From: Strigops habroptila
Lineage: Eukaryota; Chordata; Aves; Psittaciformes; Psittacidae
Reading direction: 5' to 3'
NCBI RefSeq assembly: GCF_004027225.2
Contig: NC_044301.2
Location: forward strand, 24,631,448 to 24,695,447
DNA: 64,000 nt
Shown: positions 12,806 through 64,000 of the stretch, in pieces
Numbering within the stretch: the first letter of the stretch is position 1
How the letters are laid out: the number at the start of each line of letters is the position of its first letter
Notes under the pieces: generated by a model
What the model saw: the letters and a program-made list of their open reading frames with translations, nothing else
Database searches by the model: none
What the model was told of the DNA's origin: nothing
Position numbers and translations under genes: made by a program

Positions 12806-12981
12806 AAAACCAGACTTCGCCATTTCTTTCCCTTAGGAGTTGACGGGACATTTTGCTGTCTCTGAACACACAAAAGAAAGGGCAGAGATCGTGCCTGATC
12901 ATAAACGTCTAGATTTTGATGAATAAGTCTGACAGGTTCCTCCACATGAAGCCCCATTGGTAAGCAATTTATTTCACTTAC

Positions 12982-13129
12982 CTATCTTTGAAGAAAAATG
13001 TTTCTCCTCTAATTTGTGCAACTCCATCAAATACAATGTCATGCTTGCAGAGCTCTGGAGTGACAGGTCCAAGGGTTGGACGTGGGCCAGACCCCGGCCC
13101 TGGCCCAGGTTCGACATCAGTCGACACTT
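12982..13129 (-). CDS. MMP2: MMP2 exon 9 (hinge and start of hemopexin domain)
   Basis: 148 nt with a TTACAG acceptor and a GTAAGT donor. The reading runs from a split Glu through [15 protein letters not shown], a Pro/Gly-rich hinge, to [17 protein letters not shown] and ends FFFKD plus a split Arg. The Cys in PELCKHD is the first of the pair that closes the hemopexin propeller. The frame is intact and the phases join both neighbours. An identical copy lies at 63747-63894. Confidence 0.95.
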
Positions 13130-14890
13130 CTGTAATGGTGAACAGAGAAGTTCTGTTACACTGAAATACAGTGCTTCATAGGTTCCACAGAGCACATGAA
13201 CTGCCATAATTCCTAGAAGGGGAATAATTTGGAGGAAGTGCTTGAAGGAGCAAAAAAATTTATAAAATCTTCTCAGAAGAAGGGTGGTCAAGTACAGCTG
13301 AGAAGGCCTTAGCTTCCAATCCTGCCTTAACCTGCTGTGTGGACTCATTCACACTGCCTGTGTGAATGTCTGTCCATGCTGCATTGTCTGTCTAACTTGA
13401 AAGATACTCAGAAGTGACTATACTGGGTGTAAATGTTAAAATTACAGTGTTTATTTCACTGGCTTCTAAAAAGATGAGAAATGCATTTCAAAGTCCTTCT
13501 ATTCAGAATTATCTTCAACTCTGCTGAGAGAGATGTCAAAGTGGATTTCTGTTCTTTAAAGAATTACAATATTTTGCAAGTTACAAAGATGCTTTTTGAG
13601 CCATTCATATGATCATTCTGCCCTCATCAATAATCAAAATGTGTTCTTCAGAATATGCACTTTGCCATCTGGTTTATTTTGTTTTGGTTTATTATTTGGC
13701 TGCTGCTGTATTGCCTTATGAGGCATTTGCCTTTTTTTCTTAAATACCAGGTTTATTTACTGTATGAAACAAAAAGTGGAGTGCAGCTGATTTGAGATAA
13801 TAATAATAATGGAAGAAAACAAAGGGGTTTTTGAATACTTGTTTTATATAGAAAGCAGTTTGTAAAGGGTTCTATCAGTTATAAAGAGGCAAGAAAGATA
13901 GTTTTGTCTCAGGTTTTGAAGTGTGCGTTGAGACAACTGAGTTAAATTCTAAACTCTATTAAAGATACGCTGCGTGAGCTTCAAAAGTTCATGGAACTTT
14001 GCCCATGTCTCAATTCCCAGTCTTAAAGCAGCTAAGAACAAGGGGAAAAAAAAGAAGATTCAAATCAGATTTTTTGATAAAAAGGTGTCTCATGTGGTAA
14101 TCATTTTGGTATATTCCTATTATCATTTCTAAGGTGTTGAATACTGTAGATATCTCAGTAGAAAAGTGGAAAGCACAAAAAAGATGGCATAGACTTTCTC
14201 TGCTTAATTGACTGTAGTAGATTTGTGCCTCTACAAGGTACAAAATATATACATGGAAGGAATTTTAATCATAATAATACTTATGCATTTTACTAAGAGT
14301 ATCTGTGGAGAAAATAATAAATTTTAAAGATGTACCAACATAAAAATACTTGAGTCCACTATTTCTCCAGGAGCTTGCCAAATACATTTATGTCAACGTA
14401 TCGGCTCCCACACACTCTGCAAATGTTATTGTGATGGTACAGCTTGGGTTATTGTGAGCAGGCAATGTGAACTGTTTCCAAGCTAGGACAAGAAACAACT
14501 TCCTTCCCCTCTCCTTACAGGGAGTTGCCATCTGGGAAGTTCAGAGTGTTGTAGACAACACCCAAACCCACCCACAGCAGGTATTTCAGGCTAGAGAAGA
14601 GCACAGCATTTCATTGTCCCAGTAAAGGCATTAGAAATTTTAACGTAAAGGTTTGGTTAGGGGATGTTTTCGGGCTTCTGTTAGTTCAGTAAATTTACCC
14701 CTCATCCTTAAATTGTGTTTTTTTTAAGTAGGAGCCTCTTAATAACATAAAGCAGGGAGAAAGGAACAGAGGGTGTTTCTGGCATTGATGATACTATGCA
14801 GTATGTCATTTACTGCAAGTTCTGAGTCCCAAATTTCAACCTGTGCTGCATGCTTTTCTGATGAGTTCTGCTGCAGAGGAAGGACCTTAC
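13130..14890 (-). other. MMP2: MMP2 intron 8
   Basis: 1.8 kb, AT-rich, GT/AG boundaries. No repeats recognised beyond an (ATA)n run near 13799. The whole intron is duplicated in the right arm. Confidence 0.65.
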
Positions 14891-15046
14891 CATATAGCTC
14901 CTGTATCCCTTTAATGTCATCCTGAGAAAGTCGAAAGTTCTTGGTGTAGGTGTAGATGGGGGCCATCAGAGCTCCTGGATCCTCTGAGTGCTCTAACCCC
15001 ATGGCATGGCCAAATTCATGAGCAGCAACTAAGAAGAGACTGTATC
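14891..15046 (-). CDS. MMP2: MMP2 exon 8 (catalytic zinc site)
   Basis: 156 nt, the family's usual length. It reads [20 protein letters not shown], containing the metzincin zinc motif HExxHxxGxxH with the catalytic Glu, followed by the Met-turn region [11 protein letters not shown] and the end of the catalytic domain [10 protein letters not shown]. Splice phases join exon 7 (split Gly) and exon 9 (split Glu). The frame is intact. It is separated from exon 7 by an intron that has taken up a 7.2 kb provirus, and it is duplicated in reverse at 61831-61986. Confidence 0.97.
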
Positions 15047-15764
15047 CTAAATAACATAGCAAGATAGTATTAGCTGCTTGCATCTAAATAGAAGTGTACC
15101 ACACAGGTTATTCATAGTCTTATTATTTTATTATCCTTGCTACCCATCAAAAATCTCCCAACAGTAAATATCATCATTATTTACAGTCTCCAATGGTGAA
15201 TGTCATACATATTGCCAGAAATGACATTTTAATAGAGAGGTTCTAAACCCTCTTCTATAGCTGATATATGCTGCTGTCTCAAATGCAAGTGACTTTGACC
15301 ACGGTCTTAATACTTCTGTAAAAAAGGAAGTGTAGCAAATAAAATCAGACTTTTTTTTTTTTTAAGCACAGAAGAATTAAACTTGCAGTCTAGAACTCAA
15401 ATCTTACTTTTCATGATGAAATGGCATGCAAGTGATAAACAGGTCCATATATCAGTGTGTCCATGAACAGAGCCTGGATCACTACTGTTGTACCAAATAT
15501 TGTTAGGTTAAAAATATCTTTTATCGTAGGATGACATTTTATCAGTTATTCCCAAACAGTGTCTGAAATTTGGCAGTTACTTTCCTCCTAAAAGGAAATC
15601 CTGAATCTTGCATTTGTTGGTACATGTGTAAAACCCTTTCTGCTATATTTAAGTTTATCCATGTTAAAAATAAGGACAAATCTTAACCAAAATAATTTTA
15701 AATATTCACCATATAAACTTCATACTCTCTCACTTTTTAAATGTGTTTTTCGTGTCGGCAATAT
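15047..15764 (-). other. MMP2: MMP2 intron 7, exon 8 side
   Basis: Intronic sequence between exon 8 and the proviral insertion, including a T13 run at 15351-15363. The copy in the right arm has 12 bases in this run. Confidence 0.7.
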
Positions 15765-61830: not shown

Positions 61831-61986
61831 GATACAGTCTCTTCTTAGTTGCTGCTCATGAATTTGGCCATGCCATGGGGTTAGAGCACTCAGAGGATCC
61901 AGGAGCTCTGATGGCCCCCATCTACACCTACACCAAGAACTTTCGACTTTCTCAGGATGACATTAAAGGGATACAGGAGCTATATG
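61831..61986 (+). pseudogene. MMP2: Inverted duplicate of MMP2 exon 8
   Basis: Identical to 14891-15046, with TTATTTAG acceptor, GTAAGG donor and the [11 protein letters not shown] motif. There are no exons 1-7 upstream on this strand within the window (only the provirus and spacer), so as placed it cannot make gelatinase. It may be a genuine partial duplication or an assembly duplicate. Confidence 0.9.
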
Positions 61987-63746
61987 GTAAGGTCCTTCCT
62001 CTGCAGCAGAACTCATCAGAAAAGCATGCAGCACAGGTTGAAATTTGGGACTCAGAACTTGCAGTAAATGACATACTGCATAGTATCATCAATGCCAGAA
62101 ACACCCTCTGTTCCTTTCTCCCTGCTTTATGTTATTAAGAGGCTCCTACTTAAAAAAAACACAATTTAAGGATGAGGGGTAAATTTACTGAACTAACAGA
62201 AGCCCGAAAACATCCCCTAACCAAACCTTTACGTTAAAATTTCTAATGCCTTTACTGGGACAATGAAATGCTGTGCTCTTCTCTAGCCTGAAATACCTGC
62301 TGTGGGTGGGTTTGGGTGTTGTCTACAACACTCTGAACTTCCCAGATGGCAACTCCCTGTAAGGAGAGGGGAAGGAAGTTGTTTCTTGTCCTAGCTTGGA
62401 AACAGTTCACATTGCCTGCTCACAATAACCCAAGCTGTACCATCACAATAACATTTGCAGAGTGTGTGGGAGCCGATACGTTGACATAAATGTATTTGGC
62501 AAGCTCCTGGAGAAATAGTGGACTCAAGTATTTTTATGTTGGTACATCTTTAAAATTTATTATTTTCTCCACAGATACTCTTAGTAAAATGCATAAGTAT
62601 TATTATGATTAAAATTCCTTCCATGTATATATTTTGTACCTTGTAGAGGCACAAATCTACTACAGTCAATTAAGCAGAGAAAGTCTATGCCATCTTTTTT
62701 GTGCTTTCCACTTTTCTACTGAGATATCTACAGTATTCAACACCTTAGAAATGATAATAGGAATATACCAAAATGATTACCACATGAGACACCTTTTTAT
62801 CAAAAATCTGATTTGAATCTTCTTTTTTTTTCCCCTTGTTCTTAGCTGCTTTAAGACTGGGAATTGAGACATGGGCAAAGTTCCATGAACTTTTGAAGCT
62901 CACGCAGCGTATCTTTAATAGAGTTTAGAATTTAACTCAGTTGTCTCAACGCACACTTCAAAACCTGAGACAAAACTATCTTTCTTGCCTCTTTATAACT
63001 GATAGAACCCTTTACAAACTGCTTTCTATATAAAACAAGTATTCAAAAACCCCTTTGTTTTCTTCCATTATTATTATTATCTCAAATCAGCTGCACTCCA
63101 CTTTTTGTTTCATACAGTAAATAAACCTGGTATTTAAGAAAAAAGGCAAATGCCTCATAAGGCAATACAGCAGCAGCCAAATAATAAACCAAAACAAAAT
63201 AAACCAGATGGCAAAGTGCATATTCTGAAGAACACATTTTGATTATTGATGAGGGCAGAATGATCATATGAATGGCTCAAAAAGCATCTTTGTAACTTGC
63301 AAAATATTGTAATTCTTTAAAGAACAGAAATCCACTTTGACATCTCTCTCAGCAGAGTTGAAGATAATTCTGAATAGAAGGACTTTGAAATGCATTTCTC
63401 ATCTTTTTAGAAGCCAGTGAAATAAACACTGTAATTTTAACATTTACACCCAGTATAGTCACTTCTGAGTATCTTTCAAGTTAGACAGACAATGCAGCAT
63501 GGACAGACATTCACACAGGCAGTGTGAATGAGTCCACACAGCAGGTTAAGGCAGGATTGGAAGCTAAGGCCTTCTCAGCTGTACTTGACCACCCTTCTTC
63601 TGAGAAGATTTTATAAATTTTTTTGCTCCTTCAAGCACTTCCTCCAAATTATTCCCCTTCTAGGAATTATGGCAGTTCATGTGCTCTGTGGAACCTATGA
63701 AGCACTGTATTTCAGTGTAACAGAACTTCTCTGTTCACCATTACAG
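61987..63746 (+). other. Inverted copy of MMP2 intron 8
   Basis: Matches 13130-14890 in reverse, with one base more in the T run near 62823-62831 (T9 against A8). Confidence 0.85.
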
Positions 63747-63894
63747 AAGTGTCGACTGATGTCGAACCTGGGCCAGGGCCGGGGTCTGGCCCACGTCCAA
63801 CCCTTGGACCTGTCACTCCAGAGCTCTGCAAGCATGACATTGTATTTGATGGAGTTGCACAAATTAGAGGAGAAACATTTTTCTTCAAAGATAG
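63747..63894 (+). pseudogene. MMP2: Inverted duplicate of MMP2 exon 9
   Basis: Same 148 nt as 12982-13129 with both splice sites. Followed by 106 nt of intron 9 copy to the window end. Confidence 0.9.
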
Positions 63895-64000
63895 GTAAGT
63901 GAAATAAATTGCTTACCAATGGGGCTTCATGTGGAGGAACCTGTCAGACTTATTCATCAAAATCTAGACGTTTATGATCAGGCACGATCTCTGCCCTTTC

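Follow-up and report, generated by a model that had tools for sequence, protein, structure and literature searches.

The window analysed here is a 64,000-nucleotide stretch of the kakapo (Strigops habroptila) genome (NC_044301.2, positions 24,631,448–24,695,447), in which exons of the gene MMP2 and two proviruses are arranged as an inverted repeat around a spacer. Coordinates are window positions, and DNA beyond 64000 is numbered onward from the window start. The left arm (1–15769, minus strand) is host DNA carrying the 3' half of MMP2 in its W version and includes a W-specific long interspersed nuclear element (LINE) insertion at about 2716–6276. It is followed by the left provirus, P1 (15770–22959, plus strand), the spacer of host DNA (22965–53902, minus strand, delimited by Z alignments), the right provirus (53908–61107, minus strand), and the right arm (61108–64000 in the window, plus strand), which is host DNA with MMP2 exons. 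The contig carrying the window (C25) is taken as the W side and contig C26 as the Z side. A CHD1-type C-terminal domain was present on both contigs, and MMP2 of C25 has a gametologous copy on C26. From these features and from the contig sizes, C25 is probably the W chromosome, and the domain and the gametologous Z copy place the repeat on a sex-limited chromosome, as expected of a sex-chromosome palindrome.

Self-BLAST of the window yielded one long inverted match, 12876–22962 against 64000–53905, with 98.26% identity over 10,102 columns, which bore out the large inverted repeat proposed in an earlier sequence-only reading. When neighbouring DNA was added, the match extended to 1–22962 against 76860–53905, also inverted (98.71%, 23,017 columns). 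That reading had placed the end of the arm at 12876, but the arm reaches the first base of the window and, on the other side, 76860. The inspection of sequence past 64000 that it had recommended showed that the right arm runs to 76860 and is followed by a flank colinear with Z. The presence of the inverted repeat in the assembly, with arms of at least 23 kb, is thereby confirmed; they are too long for chance. Arm identity exceeds the 99% used to define palindromes, with no arm-to-arm substitution in 1–2715 or in 8192–15784, the exception being the inner provirus end. The outer 2.9 kb of the arms had been described as free of substitutions and as having three single-base length differences; the former holds for 12876–15798, and five such differences were counted there, at 13732, 14045, 14070, 15351, and 15754.

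MMP2 is distributed over the spacer and the arms. By translation and comparison with Z, the cysteine-switch block (33275–33427) and the fibronectin-II blocks (27611–27769, 24859–24978, and 23425–23547) were located on the minus strand of the spacer. The arm carries the zinc-site exon of MMP2 and at least three more exons, and exons of the right arm lie at 61830 and 63758 on the plus strand. Judged from the exon blocks identified rather than from a search for every exon, the complete order (spacer exons, P1, arm exons) exists only in the left unit, and the right arm is a copy of the 3' half. Comparison of W with Z MMP2 over 368 codons in eight blocks gave a nonsynonymous divergence (dN) of 0.008 and a synonymous divergence (dS) of 0.154. 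The W gene thus appears to be under constraint, as would be expected if the left unit is an entire gene. One MMP2 exon is broken by indels in its left-arm copy and open in its right-arm copy.

P1 sits in the intron preceding the MMP2 zinc-site exon. As delimited by its ends, its flanks, and Pfam matches, it consists of a long terminal repeat (LTR), an internal part, and a second LTR; pieces of reverse transcriptase, RNase H, and integrase were recognised in two of six stop-free P1 frames. It is bordered by identical target-site duplications, CAGTC, on its outer (15765–15769) and inner (22960–22964) sides, and Z, which is without both insertions, is uninterrupted at this site as AATATCAGTCACAAG. 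The Kimura two-parameter (K2P) distance between the outer and inner LTRs of P1 was 0.132, and Z–W distances were 0.111 in one stretch of the arm and 0.084 in one stretch of the spacer. If rates were alike, P1 would have entered at about the time when local Z–W recombination ceased.

The right provirus is flanked on its outer side by the same CAGTC (61108–61112; GACTG on the plus strand) and on its inner side by the dissimilar ACCTG (53903–53907). Z is uninterrupted at the inner site as well, and the five bases are not conserved there. Within the inner 985 positions (21975–22959 on the P1 side) the right provirus has 134 differences from P1 (13.6%), and a piece of this end is 92.7% identical to a third copy outside the window vs. 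85.9% to P1. The remainder (15799–21974) has just 27 differences, of which 25 fall in three islands totalling 727 bp. The longest clean stretch covers 3187 of these 6176 bp, a length reached in none of 20,000 uniform random placements. At island sites, other copies match the left provirus at some positions and the right one at others, so that the islands represent true differences between old proviruses and not errors; for the majority of sites in islands two and three, this comparison involved only two or three other copies. The mismatched duplications on the right, the matching ones on the left, and the uninterrupted Z show that there were two insertions and that the right provirus is chimeric. 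P1 and the second insertion, P2, are thus two insertions absent from Z, in opposite orientation and about 31 kb apart, and in the right provirus sequence resembling P1 is fused to the inner end of P2. A junction inside long inverted repeats is marked by this chimera with its mismatched duplications.

The Z alignment gives the order Y–spacer–arm–flank, taken as ancestral, where Y is the DNA beyond the far end of the spacer on Z. On W the order is Y (plus), a stretch reading N, arm (minus), P1, spacer (minus), chimeric provirus, arm (plus), and flank (plus). The spacer is single-copy on W (two probes with one W copy each) and inverted relative to Z, and the MMP2 3' half is present in two copies, inverted relative to Z. 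The spacer, present once and inverted, is therefore a copy-neutral inverted segment beside an inverted duplication, the arm, which is present twice. Copy number along Z, read on W, is 1-0-1(inverted)-2(inverted)-1. Beyond the P2 site, unique DNA of Z had no W match among the scored candidates (40 of 1309), which fits the 0 segment. Left of the window, N was read at C25:24603458–24604000, 24606001–24608000, and 24610448–24631447; the stretch comprises 27,990 bases if it is continuous through 24604001–24606000 and 24608001–24610447, which were outside the pieces read. Because the window begins exactly at the end of the N stretch and the length is an odd one, a sized assembly gap seems the likelier explanation of it. 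The left neighbour past it is Y.

On balance, the locus is probably a genuine inverted duplication, situated in the part of W derived from chr11, which arose through recombination between the two inverted proviruses. The right provirus, with its foreign inner 1 kb and a remainder mostly identical to P1, is as such recombination would leave it. The inner structure would be explained if P1 and P2 of sister chromatids had undergone crossover or break-induced copying with each other. A break in one provirus may have been repaired by invasion of the other provirus on the sister chromatid, either with crossover or by break-induced replication, and copying would then have proceeded outward across the MMP2 3' half. 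The copied end would subsequently have been attached to DNA past P2 at a junction with at most little homology, and a few kb would have been lost there. Gene conversion between the arms may later have overwritten most of the P2-derived sequence, leaving the islands; a patchy first event is an alternative source of islands with the same appearance, and the alternation of islands and clean stretches fits both. A crossover between inverted proviruses had been suggested from the sequence alone. The duplications mismatched on the right and matching on the left, the uninterrupted Z, and the foreign inner end agree with it. Its plain sister-chromatid form does not agree with the data: it predicts identical outer flanks and a dicentric or acentric product, the left neighbour is Y, and no second copy of the flank was found by the probes described below. 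With Y on the left, a second junction is required. It is conceivable, though we would put it forward only tentatively, that the locus preserves a base-level record of the birth of a W palindrome: P1 × P2 recombination, copy numbers 1-0-1-2-1, MMP2 whole on one side, and later conversion that left islands.

The right junction alone would also result if P1 × P2 recombination had simply inverted the spacer, as in the Galileo inversions of Drosophila (passages of PMC2775673), with the left arm falsely added by the assembler. However, CAGTC borders the left provirus on either side, and arm and spacer are joined through it in ancestral order; no such molecule would exist after a plain inversion. Moreover, MMP2 would be split, yet its exon blocks look constrained, so the inversion would necessarily be recent. 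This explanation is very improbable.

Arm-to-arm indels bear on a more serious rival. In 1–15784 there are 69 indel events: none in 1–2715, six in 2716–6099, 56 in the indel-rich part of the left arm (6100–10900), and seven beyond. Several apparent substitutions at 6.2–6.8 kb are one-base shifts. Evolution as the cause of the arm differences outside the provirus was rejected, since these are mostly single-base indels where the left arm departs from Z. They are probably technical in origin, stemming from a single stretch of poor consensus, the true divergence being near zero. The rival is that W is unrearranged and was assembled wrongly, its true order being Y–P2–spacer–P1–arm–flank as on Z; a wrong path through an assembly graph had also been named as an alternative in the sequence-only reading. 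A jump from P2 to P1 inside the provirus would flip the spacer, and the true tail of reads, running from the spacer across P1 into the arm, would be left at the start of the contig as an error-rich second arm. We regard it as a real but minority possibility.

Several observations weigh against a real duplication. A chimera with mismatched duplications would likewise come from a false step between P1 and P2 in an assembly graph, and near-zero substitution between the arms fits an error. The first base of the left arm directly follows sequence reading N, and its outer junction is not visible in the assembly. At the 104 differing columns that remained after 21 of 125 were excluded at alignment edges, Z sides with the right arm in 87, with the left in nine, and with neither in eight. 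The left arm is the poorer in consensus quality, a difference between copies that characterises homotype false duplications. Passages of the Vertebrate Genomes Project (VGP) paper describe false duplications at contig boundaries, about a read length long and of unequal consensus quality, and list the kakapo among assemblies treated with Purge_Haplotigs (PMC8081667); the signs in the left arm match that description. Pipeline v1.6 is named in the kakapo paper. With three probes taken from the flank that follows the right arm, no second W copy was detected (for one probe, 40 of 3741 candidates were scored). In one patch, 3002–3143 (mirror 73728–73859), of an otherwise nearly identical LINE, the arms differ from each other by 19 substitutions and a 10-base gap in about 140 bases; both arms are just 79–85% like the other copies compared.

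Other observations speak against an assembly error. The kakapo libraries of 15 and 30 kb can be expected to reach across a provirus of 7 kb. The islands would require several switches, or an earlier conversion between P1 and P2. If the N stretch is a sized gap of about 28 kb, the unrearranged order, about 50 kb long as estimated from Z lengths, would have no space for it. The unique DNA past P2 was not found on W among the candidates scored. Other candidate mirror pairs were noted on C25, and those could be errors too. A read hairpin from a missing adapter was rejected as a separate candidate, since the arms are separated by a 31-kb spacer that is colinear with Z; the assembly is free of N from window position 1 to the end of the right flank obtained.

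Bird W palindromes are already known, and the locus, if real, would add one with a largely readable origin. Those of New World sparrows are said to have been described by Davis et al. in 2010. Among the titles and abstracts searched for palindromes of the W and for neo-sex chromosomes of parrots, without use of the gene name, no description of the locus was found. Passages of a study of the duck W report 38 palindromes of 15.2–345.5 kb and mention no robustly expressed genes in them (PMC7787181). As far as these sources go, the kakapo locus resembles bird W palindromes in its inverted, near-identical W arms built around transposable elements; unlike there, the Z comparison and target-site duplications here suggest one particular pair of proviruses as its source, and in contrast to the duck palindromes the arms contain part of a constrained gene, namely its 3' half. 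The human F8 rearrangement DEL-NML-DUP/INV, in the passages available, has one junction formed by inverted-repeat recombination and the other with little homology (PMC10766186). The locus shares with it a junction in long inverted repeats and copy numbers of 1-0-1-2-1 with an inverted duplication. It differs in that the repeats are proviruses, in that the arrangement is fixed on the reference W whereas the F8 form is a patient allele, and in that the second junction is unseen, the 0 segment perhaps lying in the N stretch. For Galileo, exchanged target duplications together with chimeric elements were regarded as proving ectopic recombination, according to parts of PMC2775673. Opposite-facing copies, exchanged duplications, and a chimeric element recur here, but only one element of the pair is a chimera and the inversion comes with a duplication. 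Homotype false duplications, as outlined in passages of PMC8081667 and PMC9516828, likewise lie at a sequence boundary, are about as long as a long read, and have one copy of poorer consensus; they are tandem copies with a gap between, whereas here the copies are inverted with a 31-kb N-free spacer between them.

On non-recombining sex chromosomes, later conversion often masks the origin of a palindrome. At this locus, most steps can be read from the Z copy, the chimeric provirus, and two target-site duplications, and they indicate retroviral insertions as the substrate. If other W palindromes begin likewise at pairs of endogenous retroviruses (ERVs), the ERVs accumulated on the W would themselves create the palindromes by which its decay may be slowed. 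If the arrangement is instead an error, the reference W of the kakapo contains a false partial copy of MMP2 and a false inversion, and the case demonstrates that an assembly error can mimic provirus-mediated recombination even to mismatched target duplications.

Elsewhere on C25, three further candidate inverted repeats were noted at 12.818/12.901 Mb, 36.620/36.639 Mb, and 36.312/36.370 Mb (L049–L056). They were chosen among the matches listed because the hits mirrored each other, and are no random sample. Of four pairs of probes at these sites, three matched at 99.9–100% over about 1.2 kb, and the outer pair L051/L052 had no match. Match pairs less than 300 kb apart, among the matches listed, occurred in both orientations, and direct pairs with near-equal scores were also present, e.g., 16481083/16525393; this survey covered 24 of 71 and 36 of 51 rows of two listings, other contigs and weaker fragments being excluded.

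A third provirus lies in the flank beyond the window, at 85501–92216 in C25 window coordinates. It is about 90% like the right provirus, whose foreign inner end is similar to the end of this third copy. Additional P1-related ERV/LTR pieces were observed in the spacer at 41783–43440, 50497–51102, and 51548–53282, the last of which looks cut short.

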